From the NCBI GenBank assembly GCA_902559305.1, contig CACEHK010000007.1:1-41611 (forward strand): a DNA stretch of 41,611 bases, in the 5' to 3' direction. Source of the stretch: an uncultured Pelagibacteraceae bacterium (GTDB lineage Bacteria > Pseudomonadota > Alphaproteobacteria > Pelagibacterales > Pelagibacteraceae). A program made the translations under genes and the position numbers. The first letter of the stretch is position 1; each line of letters opens with the position of its first letter. This document shows, piece by piece, positions 8,301 through 15,863 of the stretch. The notes below the pieces were generated by a model. That model had not been told where the DNA came from and ran no database searches. It worked only from the letters and a program-made list of their open reading frames with translations.

Positions 8301-8766
8301 TATTGCTGCTACATTATTGAAATTACAAGAAAGAAAAACAGCAAAAGGAAACTCTTATGCAGTTCTAAAACTTACAGATTTAAATAGTGTCTTTGAGCTT
8401 TTTATTTTTTCTGATATTTTGGAACTCAATAGAGAAATTTTAAAAGAAGGTAGTTCTCTTTTGTTAACTCTAGTAAAAAATATATCTAGTGACGAAAATA
8501 GATTTAAAAGAATTAATGTTCAAAAAGTTGCTTCTTTAAAAAATTTGTTTAATAGTTCTATTAACGAGATATCTTTTGATATTAATTCAAATGAAGAATT
8601 AGAAGAAATTTGTAAAATGTTAAATAAAGAAGGAAAAACTATTGTAAATATTAATTTTTTAACAAAAGACAATGTTCTCAAATTTAAACTTAAAAATTCA
8701 CGCCATTTAGATAGAAAATCCTTAAGTCTTCTAAGAAAACATCAAATTCAAGCTATAATTAGTTAA
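5350..8766 (+). CDS. dnaE: DNA polymerase III alpha subunit
   Basis: Catalytic subunit of the replicative polymerase. I place the start at the ATG at 5350, giving 1138 residues, because the next residues lead straight into the PHP domain motif HLKIHTQYS; a GTG at 5326 would add eight residues with no family support. The order is the PHP domain (first ~270 residues), the C-family polymerase core with GPGRGSGAGS and the catalytic PDFDIDF motif (Asp404, Asp406), then the finger, helix-hairpin-helix and OB-fold regions towards the C-terminus. Length and order fit DnaE rather than PolC or DnaE2. The start lies inside lolD. It ends the first block; the 131-base spacer after it is the longest in the window. 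Confidence 0.97.
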   Translation: MQESEIKTFNHLKIHTQYSICEGAVKIEDLKIYCKDNKVKSIGLSDTSNLCGALEFSEKISKSGSQPIIGTQIRFKLDETIGLLPLFALNEIGYKNIIKLSSASYLKNDDLSEPHVEFNNLLSSSEGVAVFSGTVFGLFGQLFNKGKFNEIHNLYSEIKKKLGDRFYIEIQRHNDQNEINFEKYNLGKSLDLDIPIIATNEVFYLNKNMHEAHDALICIGNKTYVNEKNRVRLSDQHYFKKNSEMSELFADLPEALENNYNFPLRCSFRPIFSNPILPNISSEKEGNADSILKKDSLDGLKNKFNKFFGIKDEKLETNPTYLKYKSRLNHELSIINEMKYSSYFLIVSDYIKWAKSKDIPVGPGRGSGAGSLVAWCLSITDVDPIKFNLIFERFLNPDRISMPDFDIDFCEDKRDLVFEYLTKKYKDSVAHIITFGKLKARMVIRDVGRVLGLPYGFVDSISKMIPFDPSRPQNLTQCISSEPRLQKLIKEDPRVKKLTDLSLKLEDLNRNVATHAAGVVIADKKLTEIVPLYKDASTDLLLPSTQFDMYSAENAGLVKFDFLGLKTLTVINNTEKLIRKKKKEFKIENINFEDQKVFELLSTGNTVGLFQIESAGMREALTQMKPNHIEDIIALVALYRPGPMSNIPTYNDCKHGRQTPDYLHPLLEEILKPTYGVIIYQEQVMEIAQKLSGFTAGQADLLRRAMGKKKRAELEKQKQGFIDGAIKNGIAKDVAAGIFLKIEPFAEYGFNKSHAAAYGIISYQTAFLKTYYPNEFIASSMTMDISNQDKLSEFYEELKRLNVEVIRPDINECYADFRTIDNKFYYALGGIKAVGYESITNIVKERDKNGKFKSINDFINRVNPKDINKLQLEGLTKAGAFDSLISNRQALFNSIPNIISKSKNIFDNKNANQIDLFKEDENTQNDIIGNSEDWKFEERLSKEFESVGFFISDHPLNQFTEIFDDYKIIEYSKFILKNEIKNANIAATLLKLQERKTAKGNSYAVLKLTDLNSVFELFIFSDILELNREILKEGSSLLLTLVKNISSDENRFKRINVQKVASLKNLFNSSINEISFDINSNEELEEICKMLNKEGKTIVNINFLTKDNVLKFKLKNSRHLDRKSLSLLRKHQIQAIIS

Positions 8767-8773
8767 ATAAAAC

Positions 8774-8802
8774 TTGTTAATTTCTAAAAATATTTGTAAA
8801 TA
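8774..8802 (+). promoter_or_regulatory. Possible promoter upstream of rpsB
   Basis: The dnaE-rpsB spacer is the only sizeable plus-strand gap, so a promoter for the rpsB block is expected in it. A TTGTTA at 8774-8779 is followed, after 17 bases, by TAAATA at 8797-8802, a weak pair compared with the sigma-70 consensus. Another pair shifted about 20 bases downstream is equally possible. In DNA this rich in A and T such matches are common by chance, so the exact site is not established. Confidence 0.22.
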
Positions 8803-8826
8803 CTGCTTAAATTAAATTAATACGCA

Positions 8827-8890
8827 CACAATTTTTGGTTTAACAACCCTCCGGTCCTTAATTGGAAATAATTGTGGTGGCATAACCGGG
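8827..8890 (+). promoter_or_regulatory. Structured 5' leader of rpsB (candidate S2 autoregulatory RNA)
   Basis: The last 70 bases before rpsB are clearly richer in G and C than the surroundings and can fold. CACAATT at 8827-8833 pairs perfectly with AATTGTG at 8870-8876. Inside this stem, GGTT at 8837-8840 pairs with AACC at 8845-8848, and CCGGT at 8851-8855 pairs with ACCGG at 8885-8889 beyond the stem (extended by a U-G pair 8850/8890), which makes a pseudoknot. The downstream arm covers the only G-rich stretch that could serve as ribosome binding site, seven bases before the ATG. A structured leader before the S2 gene has been reported in Pelagibacter by comparative genomics; that this is the same element, and that S2 binds it, is inference. 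Confidence 0.75.
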
Positions 8891-8897
8891 AAAAAAA

Positions 8898-9695
8898 ATG
8901 AAGATACCGCAAATAACTATACAACAACTATTAGAAGCAGGCGTCCATCTTGGTCATAAGACATTAAGATGGAATCCGAAAATGAAAAATTATATTTTTG
9001 GAAAGAGAGACTCAATTCATATAATTGATTTAACCCAGACATTAGAATTAATAAATATCGCACTTGAAAAAATATATAAAGTTATATCTGAAAATGGTAA
9101 AATACTTTTTATATCGACAAAAAAACAAGCTTCAGAGGCTATAGCAGACTTGTCCAAAGAAACTGACCAATACTATGTGAATCATAGATGGTTAGGTGGT
9201 ATGTTGACTAATTGGGATACAATCTCAAACTCTATTAAAAAATTAGAAAAATTAAATATAGATTTAGTTTCTGAAAATAGAGGATTTACCAAGAAAGAAC
9301 TTTTAAAAATGAGTGTTCAGAGAGATAAGCTTGAAAAGTCATTAGGTGGAATATCAAAAATGAAAAAAGTTCCAGACCTAGTTTTTGTAATAGATACAAA
9401 TTATGAATCATTAGCAATTAAAGAATCAATTAAATTAGGAATACCTATTATTGCAATATTAGATACTAATTCTGATCCCGAAGGAATAAATTTTCCAATA
9501 CCAGGAAATGATGATGCGAGAAGATCGATAGATCTTTATTGCAATCTAATTAAAGAAACAATTATCAATGCAAAAAAAGAAACCCCCGTTTCAGAAGAAA
9601 AAATTTCTAAAGTTGAAGAAAAAAAAGATTTGAAAGATATTTCTTCTGAAAAAAAAAAGGATGATAAAAAATCACAAATTAATCCTTTAAATTAA
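8898..9695 (+). CDS. rpsB: 30S ribosomal protein S2
   Basis: Small-subunit ribosomal protein S2, 265 residues. The N-terminus ([19 protein letters not shown]), the central [11 protein letters not shown] motif and the later PDLVFVIDT and [14 protein letters not shown] segments are diagnostic. The last ~40 residues form a lysine/glutamate-rich, low-complexity tail, a type of extension common in alphaproteobacterial S2. The start at 8898 follows the structured leader and gives the canonical N-terminus. tsf starts four bases after its stop, the usual rpsB-tsf pair. Confidence 0.98.
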
Positions 9696-9699
9696 AAAA

Positions 9700-10551
9700 A
9701 TGGGTGATTTAGATAAAATTAAACAATTAAGAAAATCTACTGGAGCAGGTTTTAAAGACTGCAGTGCAGCACTTTCAGAATCAAATAATGACATTGAAAA
9801 GGCAATAGAAATACTAAGAGTCAAAGGAATTTCTAAAGCATCAAAAAAAATGTCTAGAGATGCGAAAGAAGGTTTAATTGCTTTAAGTGGAAACGAAAAT
9901 AAAACTTCAGTTTTAGAAGTAAATTGTGAAACTGACTTTGTTGCTAAAAATGAAGATTTTATCAATTTTGTAAAAGAGTTAAGTGATTTAAATAATCATG
10001 TCAATTCAGATCTGGAAAGTCTAAATAAATCAATTATGAAAAATAAAAAATCAGTTTCAGAAAACCTTGTTTCAATGATTGCAAAAATAGGTGAAAAAAT
10101 CACATTAGGAAGAGCTAAAACTTTAAAATATGAAAATTCAAAAAATTATTATTATTTACATTCTGTAGTTAAAGATAATTTATCAAAATTAGCTGTTATT
10201 TCTACAATTGGCACTAATGAAAAAGTAGAAAAAGTTGATATTTTTGGAAAGCAATTAACTATGCATATAGCCGCTTCAAATCCTATATCTGTAGAGCCTG
10301 AGGGAATTAAAAAAGAAATACTTGATAAAGAGCAAGAATTAATTACTGAGGAACTTAAGGTTAGTGGAAAACCAGAAGATATAGCAAAAAAAATTAGTTC
10401 TGGTAAAATAAACAAGTTTAAAGAGGAAAATAGCTTGATGACACAACAGTGGGTTATGGAGCCTAAGAAAAAAGTAAAAGAAATTATAAATGAACTTGGA
10501 ATTAAAGATTTAAAAATTATTGATTTTTATAGAATCAAGATTGGTGACTGA
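9700..10551 (+). CDS. tsf: Elongation factor Ts
   Basis: Nucleotide exchange factor for EF-Tu, 283 residues. The N-terminal UBA-like domain has [18 protein letters not shown], followed by the core with [14 protein letters not shown], where the TDFV motif contacts EF-Tu. Length is normal. There is no obvious Shine-Dalgarno sequence in the A-rich gap after rpsB. Its TGA stop shares one base with the frr ATG (TGATG). In most bacteria with this gene order pyrH lies between tsf and frr; here the two are directly fused in the transcript with no room for it. Confidence 0.98.
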
Positions 10552-12453: not shown

Positions 12454-13616
12454 AAAAAAAAATTGGAATTCTAGGATCTACTGGATCAATAGGTAAAAAC
12501 ACTGTTAGCATTATTAATGAAAACAAAAATGATTTTGATGTTATTTTCTTATCAACAAATAACAACGTTAATATTTTATACAAACAATGTAAATCATTAA
12601 AACCTAAAGCTGTAATAATATTTAATAAAAAAAAATATTTTAAATATAAGTATAAATTTTTAATAAAAAAAATTAAAGTTTTTTATTCTTTTGAAAAATT
12701 AAAACTATCATTATTAAAAAAAAAAATTGATTATATAATGTGTTCTATATCTGGTTTATCAGGTTTAAGTTCGACAATTGATTCAATTAGCTCAACCAAA
12801 TTTGTTGCAATTGCTAATAAAGAATCAATTATATGTGCTTGGGATTTGATAAAAAAAAATATAATTAAATACAAAACAAGTTTTATACCAATTGACTCAG
12901 AACATTTTTCAATTTGGTCTCTTTTAAAAAATCATTCATCTGATGAAGTTCAAAAAGCAATAATTACTGCATCAGGAGGTCCTTTTTTAAGTTATAAAAT
13001 AAAAAAAATAAAAAATGTTAATCCACAAAAAGCAGTTAAACACCCTAATTGGAAAATGGGTAAAAAAATTTCTATTGATTCTGCGACACTCATGAATAAA
13101 GTCTTTGAAGTTATAGAAGCTCAAAGAATCTTTAATATTGATATAAAAAAATTTGAAGTCTTAATACACCCGAAATCTTATGTACATTCTATTCTTAAAT
13201 TTAAAAATGGTCAGATCAAAATATTAGCTCACGATCCTGATATGAAAATTCCAATATTCAATTCTTTAAATTTAGATAAGAAAAAAAAAATTAAATCCAA
13301 AAACATAGATATTTCAATTTTAAATAATTTGAATTTTAAAAAAGTAAACTTATCAAGATATCCAAGTCTTAAAGTACTTAAAAAAATTAATAATAATAAT
13401 ACTTTATTCGAAACAGTTTTAATTGCAGCAAACGATGAATTGGTTGATCTTTACTTGCAGAATAAAATTTATTTTTTTGAAATAAATAAAAACTTGAACA
13501 AAATTATTAATTTAAAAATATATTCGGATCTTATAAGGAAAAAACCCAAAAAAATATCCGATATAATGAATCTATCTGAAGAAGTTAGATTGAAAACAAG
13601 AGAACTATGTGTATAG
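12450..13616 (+). CDS. dxr: 1-deoxy-D-xylulose 5-phosphate reductoisomerase
   Basis: Converts DXP to 2-C-methyl-D-erythritol 4-phosphate in the MEP isoprenoid pathway, using NADPH and a divalent metal. I start it at the ATG at 12450, overlapping cdsA by ATGA, giving 388 residues that begin directly with the nucleotide-binding GILGSTGSIGKNT; an upstream start would only add residues from inside cdsA. Later motifs are ANKES, DSEHFS, ASGGPF and HPNWKMGKKISIDSATLMNK, covering metal and substrate sites. The frame is very rich in Lys, Asn and Ile, as AT pressure predicts. bamA follows after only 15 bases, with no rseP between. Confidence 0.96.
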   Translation: MKKKIGILGSTGSIGKNTVSIINENKNDFDVIFLSTNNNVNILYKQCKSLKPKAVIIFNKKKYFKYKYKFLIKKIKVFYSFEKLKLSLLKKKIDYIMCSISGLSGLSSTIDSISSTKFVAIANKESIICAWDLIKKNIIKYKTSFIPIDSEHFSIWSLLKNHSSDEVQKAIITASGGPFLSYKIKKIKNVNPQKAVKHPNWKMGKKISIDSATLMNKVFEVIEAQRIFNIDIKKFEVLIHPKSYVHSILKFKNGQIKILAHDPDMKIPIFNSLNLDKKKKIKSKNIDISILNNLNFKKVNLSRYPSLKVLKKINNNNTLFETVLIAANDELVDLYLQNKIYFFEINKNLNKIINLKIYSDLIRKKPKKISDIMNLSEEVRLKTRELCV

Positions 13617-13631
13617 AATAATATTATTAAA

Positions 13632-15863
13632 ATGAAATTATTAATTAAAATATTTTTTATATATCAATTACTTACAGTATTAGCTTATTCTGATTCTGTT
13701 AAAAGTTTTGATATAAGTGGCAATGAAAGAATTTCCAAAGCATCAATAATCTTATTTTCTAAGGTTAATATAGATGATGATATTAATAGTGAAGATTTAA
13801 ATAAAATCGTTAAGAATTTATATTCAACAAATTTTTTTAAAGATGTTAGTGTTTCTTTTAAAGATAAAACTTTAAAAATTGTTGTTTTAGAAAATCCCAT
13901 AATACAAAAATTAATTTTTGAAGGAATTAAAAAACAAAATATAATATCTATTTTAAAAGATAATGTTGTTTTAAAAGAAAAAAATCCTTTTTTAATTAGC
14001 TCTGTAAAGAAAGATGAAACAAAAATTATTAATATTCTTAAATCAAATGGGTATTATTTTACTAAAGTTAGTTCCAAAATATCAAATAATGAAAATAATA
14101 CAGTTGATCTTATTTATGAAGTTGACCTTGGTAAAAAGGCATATATTAAAAAAATTAAATTTATTGGAGATAAAAAAATTAAAGATAGAAAATTAAGATC
14201 TATAATTATTTCTGAAGAGTCAAGATTTTGGAAATTTATTTCAAATAAAAAATTTTTGGACATAAATAGAATTAAACTTGATGAAAAATTAATTACTAGT
14301 TATTATAAAAATAATGGATATTATAATGTTAAAGTCCAAAGTTCATCTGCACAAGTAATAGATAATAAAAATTTTGAATTAATATTTAATATCGACTCTG
14401 GAAAAAAATATTATTTTAATACTCTTAAGTTAAATTTTCCATCTACATTTTCTGACACTGAGTTTTCTGATATATTTGAAGTTCTTGAGAATCTTAAGGG
14501 TAAAGTTTATTCTTTAAAAAGAATTAAGACCATTTTAAATGAGATTGATAAAATTCTTCTAAATAGTGATTACGCATTTTTCAATGCCACTTATGATGAA
14601 GAGTTATTTGATGATAAAATAAATCTTACAATAAATTTAAAAGAGTCAGAAAAGTTTTATGTTGAAAAAATAAATCTTTTTGGAAATTATATAACAAACG
14701 AAAGAGTTATTAGAAATCAATTATACGTTGATGAGGGCGATCCATTTAATGAAATTTTGTTAAATAATTCAATCAATGAAATAAAATCTTTAGGAATATT
14801 TGGAAATGTTTCTAAAGAAATCAAGGATGGATCAAGTGAAATTTATAAAGTTGTTGATATAACCGTTGAAGAACAGCCAACTGGTGAAGTAATGGCTGGA
14901 GCAGGAACTGGTACAAGCGGAACTTCATTAACAGTTGGAATTAAAGAAAAAAATTATCTTGGTGAAGGTACTAAACTTGATGCCACAGCCACATTATCAG
15001 AGGTTGGTTTGCAGGGAATATTTTCAATTGATTTAAAAAATTATAAAAATTCTGATAAAGATTTAAATTTATCATTTGAAAATTCATCAATAGATCAACT
15101 ATCAAAATATGGTTATAAAAGCACCAAAACTGGCTTAACTTTAGGTACATCTTATGAGCAGTATAAAGATGTTTATTTTTCACCTTCATTGTCAAATTAT
15201 TATGAAACTATGAAAACATCTTCTTCAGCTAATGAAACAAGAAAAAAACAAGAGGGTGATTATTTCGACACTAGTTTTAACTATCGATTTACATTAAATA
15301 AACTTAATAGAAATTATCAACCAACAGATGGTTTTAAAACAAGCTTTTTTCAATCACTTCCTGTTTATTCTGATGATTTAACATTAGTAAATGCTTTTGA
15401 ATTTGGTAAATATTACACGATTTTTGATGAACAAGTATTTAGTTTTAATTTTATTATTAAATCTGCAAACTCACTAAGTGGTGACGATGTAAGGGTGTCT
15501 AAAAGACTGTTTATACCATCAAGAAGACTAAAAGGTTTCGTCTCAGGTAAGGTTGGACCATATGATTCAGGAGATTATATTGGAGGAAATTATTTATCTA
15601 TTTTAAATTTATCAACAAATTTACCTAAACTGTTTACAGAAGTTCAAAATTTAGATTTTTCTATATTCCTCGATGCTGGTAATCTTTGGGGAGTTGATTA
15701 CGACAGTTCACTTGATAATAGTAAATTGAGATCTTCAACAGGTTTAGCTATTGACTGGTTCACACCAGTTGGCCCATTAAGCTTTTCATTTTCTGCACCT
15801 ATAAGCAAGGCTGACACGGATAAAACTGAAACCTTCAGATTTGATATTGGTACTACTTTTTAA
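13632..15863 (+). CDS. bamA: Outer membrane protein assembly factor BamA
   Basis: Omp85-family core of the BAM complex that inserts beta-barrel proteins into the outer membrane. It has 743 residues: an N-terminal signal peptide (hydrophobic stretch about 3-18, cleavage probably near AYS), repeated POTRA domains covering roughly residues 23-410, and a C-terminal barrel. The barrel contains RRLKGF, the family's lid motif, and the chain ends with a phenylalanine (FDIGTTF), the expected beta-signal. The start at 13632 gives a good signal peptide. Its stop overlaps the skp start by one base. Confidence 0.96.
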   Translation: MKLLIKIFFIYQLLTVLAYSDSVKSFDISGNERISKASIILFSKVNIDDDINSEDLNKIVKNLYSTNFFKDVSVSFKDKTLKIVVLENPIIQKLIFEGIKKQNIISILKDNVVLKEKNPFLISSVKKDETKIINILKSNGYYFTKVSSKISNNENNTVDLIYEVDLGKKAYIKKIKFIGDKKIKDRKLRSIIISEESRFWKFISNKKFLDINRIKLDEKLITSYYKNNGYYNVKVQSSSAQVIDNKNFELIFNIDSGKKYYFNTLKLNFPSTFSDTEFSDIFEVLENLKGKVYSLKRIKTILNEIDKILLNSDYAFFNATYDEELFDDKINLTINLKESEKFYVEKINLFGNYITNERVIRNQLYVDEGDPFNEILLNNSINEIKSLGIFGNVSKEIKDGSSEIYKVVDITVEEQPTGEVMAGAGTGTSGTSLTVGIKEKNYLGEGTKLDATATLSEVGLQGIFSIDLKNYKNSDKDLNLSFENSSIDQLSKYGYKSTKTGLTLGTSYEQYKDVYFSPSLSNYYETMKTSSSANETRKKQEGDYFDTSFNYRFTLNKLNRNYQPTDGFKTSFFQSLPVYSDDLTLVNAFEFGKYYTIFDEQVFSFNFIIKSANSLSGDDVRVSKRLFIPSRRLKGFVSGKVGPYDSGDYIGGNYLSILNLSTNLPKLFTEVQNLDFSIFLDAGNLWGVDYDSSLDNSKLRSSTGLAIDWFTPVGPLSFSFSAPISKADTDKTETFRFDIGTTF

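Follow-up and report, generated by a model that had tools for sequence, protein, structure and literature searches.

A structured RNA in front of rpsB, the rpsB motif (RF01815), was described by Meyer (2009) in 'Candidatus Pelagibacter ubique' and Alphaproteobacteria (PMC2704228). As given in that paper, the motif of 'Cand. P. ubique' consists of a stem P1, a 3-bp P2 and a 2-bp P3, together with a pseudoknot between the junction J2-3 and the 3' extension of P1, which comprises five pairs outside the Firmicutes. In strain HTCC1062 it occupies the gap between dnaE and rpsB (873155-873283), and an unannotated rpsB RNA was re-found later in the SAR11 strain HIMB5 (PMC6429828). In E. coli, surplus S2 represses rpsB-tsf and needs bS1 to do so, according to PMC10931766, and S2 autorepression in this organism is also treated in section 6 of PMC2704228. 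The E. coli ribosome binding site (RBS) is stated not to form part of the operator, and the mode of repression is called unclear (PMC10931766). Thus, taking into account this position of the RBS and the need for bS1, the idea that free S2 hides the Shine-Dalgarno (SD) sequence is not simply transferable from E. coli. The E. coli rpsO leader, in which an autoregulatory pseudoknot embraces both the SD and the initiator codon (PMC10931766), responds to another protein, S15, and has another architecture, so that it serves as a mechanistic analogy and not as a relative.

The window considered here, the whole 41,611-nt stretch of DNA that was analysed, from an uncultured Pelagibacteraceae bacterium, carries an rpsB leader element at 8823-8890 of the forward strand, directly upstream of rpsB. 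This element is the orthologue of the published motif and, therefore, a rediscovery of something already known, as the initial annotation had anticipated in mentioning an rpsB leader reported for Pelagibacter. It precedes the same gene and follows dnaE, as in HTCC1062 (PMC2704228): the 1146-aa open reading frame upstream, which ends at 8766, is assigned to DNA polymerase III alpha with 1288 bits. It also shares the long P1 capped by a P2/P3 junction, which is borne out by covariation in the relatives of the window, and the pseudoknot between J2-3 and the 3' extension of P1, whose arms CCGGU/ACCGG are found in 89 of 89 family leaders. The published P2 has 3 bp, in contrast to that of the window, which is able to form 4 bp and has two extra bases near its 3' strand.

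The 5' strand of P1, CACAATT (8827-8833), pairs with AATTGTG (8870-8876). Inside it, GGTT (8837-8840) and AACC (8845-8848) form P2, and CC (8856-8857) and GG (8864-8865) the two pairs of P3. J2-3, UCCGGU at 8850-8855, is the 5' arm of the pseudoknot and pairs with the 3' arm ACCGGG at 8885-8890 through five Watson-Crick pairs plus U8850-G8890. These pairings had been listed in the initial annotation, except for P3 and for three outer positions of P1: in the alignment of RF01815 and in that of the family, P1 runs outward beyond a bulged A8826, CGC (8823-8825) facing GTG (8877-8879), the latter belonging to a conserved GGNGG. Two other details noted at the outset were also confirmed. The GGG at 8888-8890 is followed by seven bases and then by the rpsB ATG at 8898, and the region is GC-richer than its surroundings, with 44.1% GC in 8823-8890 (99.3rd percentile among 68-nt windows) vs 12.5% in 8767-8822, 27.3% in rpsB and 25.6% in the whole window.

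When the published leader is used in a covariance-model search, as had been suggested, the RF01815 model is matched over its full length (1-132) at 8823-8907 with an E-value of 9.1e-5, but the score of 32.4 bits lies below the 40-bit gathering score; at that threshold Rfam returns nothing. It is the single RF01815 match in its own genome up to E 10. Among 117 genomes sampled from the order, none passes the cut-off, with matches up to E 1 in 56 of them; in the family genome G352 the match reaches 33.3 bits (873211-873292). Fourteen of the 61 order genomes without a match were inspected, and in the 11 with a findable rpsB a leader with both pseudoknot arms was seen by eye at every locus. In the class sample the cut-off is passed by 73 of 289 genomes, with matches up to E 0.1 in 183. 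We think that in this order it is the cut-off, and not the element, that fails; the gathering threshold was therefore not used as a test. Since the 40-bit score is missed so often, standard annotation at the default cut-off will overlook this leader widely, also in the order of a very abundant group of marine bacteria.

Folding energy was dropped as support: the nested minimum free energy is not unusual (z-score 0.27; 116 of 200 shuffles equal or exceed it in stability), and it says nothing in favour of the element. Likewise, the 7-bp stem alone appears in 876 of 3000 shuffles of 8767-8897; the stem together with a GC-rich 5-bp pseudoknot appears in ten. What places the element beyond chance is its conservation and covariation. 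Within the family, 89 distinct Pelagibacteraceae leaders were aligned with MAFFT (alignment A2), many of them from close relatives, so that cells are not independent events. In this alignment 97.3% of the cells are paired (shuffled mean 94.5), both sides have changed in 8 of 20 pairs (shuffled 3.3), and the cells changed on both sides number 54, vs a shuffled mean of 13.9 and 0-6 in slid controls. Counting P1 as ten pairs (inner and outer) and P2 as three, here and in the wider alignment, these changes fall in six of ten pairs of P1, one of three of P2, one of two of P3 and none of the five of the pseudoknot. The innermost P1 pair (8833/8870) is unpaired in 35 of the 89 leaders, and two outer C-G pairs are invariant in all rows. 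The remaining outer pair, 8824/8878, unpaired in 10 of the 89 family leaders and in 38 of 58 wider ones, is probably a mismatch and was rejected. RNAalifold applied to A2 pairs the GG of the arm with two C of the coding sequence; this pairing was not used, as the program predicts nested pairs only.

A wider alignment (A4) was obtained by searching 99 sources with a model, R1, whose structure comprises P1, P2 and P3 only; the 58 matches with E up to 0.1, from the order and the class, were aligned by the same model. R1 derives from A2, which biases A4 in favour of the nested stems of that model, and the pseudoknot enters R1 as letters and not as structure. Cells changed on both sides number 217 in A4, vs 66.3 after shuffling and 13-60 in slid controls, and the covariation score is 0.436 vs 0.158 in shuffled alignments; cell counts and score exceed all 500 shuffles and all slid controls. 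The number of pairs with both-side changes, 15 vs a shuffled mean of 12.9 and reached by 31 of 500 shuffles, is the weak one among five measures taken on these 58 leaders. By stem, such changes are found in eight of ten pairs of P1, all three of P2 and both of P3. P1 covaries strongly. The initial annotation had made its reading depend on covariation in the paired positions, and in cell counts both alignments contain it above their shuffled means; the compensatory changes it proposed to look for in three stems were found in P1 and P2, and also in P3, but for the pseudoknot only outside the family.

Within the family, none of the five pseudoknot pairs varies in any of the 89 leaders, an invariance that, taken alone, would fit recognition of the sequence by a protein or the ribosome as well as pairing. 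Outside it, one of the five core pairs goes from C-G to U-A in 4 of the 58 wider leaders, and three show U-G or G-U variants, with five unpaired cells in total. A class set of 130 leaders, from 127 of the 183 matched genomes plus three order relatives and selected with a model biased towards CCGG arms, gave 126 with arms, five of them from Pelagibacterales, after setting aside three without an S2 start and one (L153) without arms because of a wrong start. The arms read CCGGU/ACCGG in 118 of the 126, CCGGU/ACUGG in two and CUGGU/ACCAG in four, from the families f112 and f23; these four are two pairs of genomes of the same genus and, thus, two events at most. One further leader (L179) was misread by the script, since its row visibly contains CCGGT and AACCGG, and in another (L241) the pseudoknot seems truly broken at one pair. 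With RF00127, 31 loci were taken, one from E. coli and the others from the best 30 of the 37 genomes that matched, presumably gammaproteobacteria. Eleven of them could not be parsed, and in the 20 that could the arms are GGGGU/ACCCC in nine, CGGGU/ACCCG in four, UGGGU/ACCCA in two and UGGGU/ACCCG in five, the 5' arm being ambiguous in L304, L307, L323 and L326. Judging from these sequences, the pseudoknot is backed by compensatory change across the phylum, though not inside the window's own family.

Two additional pairings were considered and set aside. The sixth pseudoknot pair, 8850/8890, is U-G or U-A in 86 of the 89 family leaders, is broken in the three rows where 8850 changes, and is unpaired in 17 of the 50 wider rows with letters at these positions, so that it lacks covariation support. 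An alternative pairing of CUCC in J2-3 with the GGNGG behind P1, which could have provided a switch, was rejected on inspection because the middle base of GGNGG (U in 79, A in 6 and C in 4 of the 89 family leaders; A, C or U in class rows) varies with no obvious matching change in J2-3.

The E. coli rpsB-tsf leader (the S2 operator; ncRNA tff/T44; RF00127, t44) resembles that of the window in having P1 and the pseudoknot ahead of the same two genes, and its GUGGAGGCAUAACC can be compared with GUGGUGGCAUAACC in the window. GUGG-N-GG is also present in E. coli and in other RF00127 leaders, and the longer stretch GUGG-N-GG...AACC is common to SAR11 and E. coli. Indeed, GUGGNGGC-N-UAACC behind P1, at 8874-8887 in the window, differs by a single base from its E. 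coli counterpart and has similar versions in the parsed RF00127 leaders, which makes this stretch a candidate S2 contact site. The E. coli leader differs in its arms, GGGGU/ACCCC, and in the distance of 24 nt that separates the end of the 3' arm from the start and contains an SD core of its own, GAGGT. Model R1, built from SAR11 leaders, fails to find it.

In the window, rpsB (8898-9695, forward strand; ribosomal protein S2; NCBIfam TIGR01011, 312.9 bits against a cut-off of 76.3) is presumably the controlled gene, and tsf (elongation factor Ts; 9700-10551, forward strand; TIGR00116, 242.5 bits against 104.05) follows after 4 nt and is probably co-regulated. Among 567 relatives of the window S2, the best 80 bear titles with Pelagibacteraceae, Pelagibacterales or Candidatus Pelagibacter, and identity is 85% for the first of them. 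From rpsB onwards, a block of 11,670 bases runs in the same direction, containing rpsB, tsf, frr, uppS, a cdsA-like gene, dxr and bamA, followed by a skp-like gene, fabZ, lpxD, lpxA, an lpxI-like gene and lpxB. Since the gaps between these genes are at most 36 nt, polarity could reach the whole block, and control of all of its roughly 12 kb by the leader is possible.

Upstream of the leader, a promoter-like block, CTTGTT-N15-TTGTAAAT, is found at 8773-8801 of the forward strand, where a sigma-70 consensus scan reports nothing. Of 94 distinct Pelagibacteraceae upstream regions, which are related to one another, 79 contain the pattern CTTGNN-N14/15-T(T/A)GTA, vs 8 of 4700 mononucleotide shuffles, and in eight matching rows the block ends 16-22 nt before P1. 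This suggests a promoter of its own for rpsB and a leader about 90 nt long; the block is possibly a housekeeping promoter type of SAR11.

Another difference from E. coli concerns the place of the pseudoknot relative to the landing site of the ribosome. The S2 operator of the E. coli type keeps the RBS outside (PMC10931766), unlike the window, where the arm overlaps the one SD-like sequence that rpsB has. Here the five-pair 3' arm lies at -13 to -9 relative to the start and rpsB begins 8 nt after it. The only SD-like bases of the gene are GGGA at 8888-8891, and the two G of the longest exact core, GGA at 8889-8891, belong to the arm as well; in this respect, the suggestion that the leader can hide the RBS agrees with the position of the arm. 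Calculated as bare duplexes, with loops uncounted, the pseudoknot helix amounts to -8.1 kcal/mol vs -4.3 kcal/mol for the pairing of SD and anti-SD.

The spacers between the 3' arm (ACCGG) and the start codon were compared among relatives, together with the SD cores in them, defined as at least 4 nt of AAAGGAGGTG. In 88 distinct leaders of near relatives the spacer has a median of 8 nt (7-10) and only two contain an SD core; this group comprises 26 leaders of the window's genus, the window included, and 62 named contigs with S2 74-87% identical, drawn from the best 80 of the 567 S2 relatives. In 121 leaders of other class members the median is 17 nt (9-28), and 111 contain a core. The RF00127 leaders have spacers of 11-25 nt, with a core after the arm in all 20 parsed. 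A second family of the order (f2) has spacers of 9-10 nt with no core inside, and in six of six cases a GGAG is made with the arm's own GG. Fourteen leaders from other genera of the window's family are more varied: those of g228, g229 and g230 read ACCGGAAA, with no clear SD and in one case a spacer of 4 nt; those of g227 read ACCGGAGA; and g5 retains AAAGGA after the arm. As g228, g229 and g230 have no clear SD, the arm cannot be said to double as the SD throughout the family. SD cores (at least 4 nt with GG) stand before four of 34 ORF starts in the window, which are a selection and not annotated genes, despite an intact anti-SD tail (ACCTCCTTTCT) in the 16S rRNA of the same genome.

The placement of the arm in the landing site is apparently new, as a modest refinement of a known element. 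In the main text of PMC2704228 the terms 'Shine-Dalgarno' and 'sequester' are absent and 'ribosome binding' appears once, about S1, so that the overlap is not discussed there in those words; nor was a mention of it met in a limited search of other literature. In most of the Pelagibacteraceae genera seen, the leader may have been shortened until its 3' arm came to lie in the landing site, giving a direct switch between knot and ribosome, a proposal for which we would put the chances at about even. If it holds, SAR11 would provide a natural test of how S2 represses translation, the mechanism called unclear for E. coli; and if the overlap is functional, comparing SAR11 with g5 or with other class members, which have a separate SD, would test the block of ribosome entry.

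Taken as a whole, we consider it quite probable that this is a cis-acting rpsB leader of the known family, placed before rpsB-tsf, in which surplus S2 would hold the fold and the arm would bar the loading of the 30S subunit. The fold, its covariation, its orthology and the overlap of arm and RBS can all be read from the sequences. The 5' untranslated region, transcribed from a promoter probably near 8773-8801, would fold into P1 with the small P2 and P3, and CCGGU in the P2-P3 junction would pair with the ACCGG that closely follows P1 on its 3' side. Surplus S2, probably together with bS1, would then bind and stabilise the folded form; the ligand, the repression and the role of bS1 are those suggested by the biology of S2 in E. 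coli. With the 3' arm at -13 to -9 overlapping the one sequence that resembles an SD, the 30S subunit would be unable to load until the knot opens, occlusion being what the position of the arm points to. Repression of rpsB would lower tsf too and, via coupling, perhaps the genes behind it. The leader would, by analogy, probably let surplus S2 shut off its own production, and the element probably belongs to the control of ribosome supply in very abundant marine bacteria.

A different use of the same leader and ligand is possible, which we regard as distinctly less probable: S2 and bS1 could dock on P1 and GGNGG and block or trap the 30S subunit with no occlusion of the RBS, the pseudoknot being architectural only. 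This would agree with the RBS of E. coli lying outside the operator and with the indication, also in PMC10931766, that control there may be lost when a conserved upstream bulge carries a small deletion, as well as with the GUGG-N-GG...AACC that SAR11 and E. coli have in common and the separate SD kept in 111 of 121 other class leaders; yet, with the arm of the window at -13 to -9, the 30S subunit and the knot should compete physically. It has to be considered, too, that the pseudoknot might be a positive element, a docking site for bS1 or the 30S subunit by which a gene poorly provided with an SD would be translated more strongly, with no S2 feedback involved. Pseudoknots are described as high-affinity bS1 targets (PMC10931766), and the SD of rpsB is weak (-4.3 kcal/mol); nevertheless, in the E. 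coli relative S2 brings about repression (PMC10931766, PMC2704228) and the arm covers the start region instead of freeing it, which makes this proposal improbable. Transcription attenuation, which a compact structured leader ahead of a long gene block could suggest, is very unlikely, given that a consensus scan of 8700-8960 shows no terminator-like site. Finally, conservation only as DNA or primary sequence (promoter, RBS), with incidental pairings, would suit the invariant pseudoknot arms of the 89 family leaders, but is already contradicted by covariation, with both-side changes in P1, P2 and P3 and, outside the family, in the pseudoknot, and can be given practically no weight next to the occlusion by an S2-stabilised fold that we favour.

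Two genes absent from the block deserve separate mention. In the sister family f2, pyrH (UMP kinase) is found 0.9 kb after rpsB (G037:C2:119599-120288, 308 bits; rpsB at 117949-118710). It is missing from the window at 10551, where tsf ends and frr starts, and PyrH has no match in the window's own genome, which is 83% complete. Nine family genomes that are 99-100% complete (G352, G012, G349, G267, G353, G354, G356, G158 and G351) all have only weak partial matches, of at most 46 bits against a cut-off of 243.9, inside frames of 282-425 aa that are presumably other amino-acid kinases. Cytidylate kinase Cmk has matches in all six of the nine genomes examined for it, above the cut-off in four. 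The essential UMP kinase step is apparently carried out by another enzyme, and a limited literature search met no account of the absence of PyrH. The gene rseP usually lies between dxr and bamA in Proteobacteria. It is not found between them in the window (13616-13632), and a TIGR00054 match is present on another contig of the genome (G000:C18:6641-7738).
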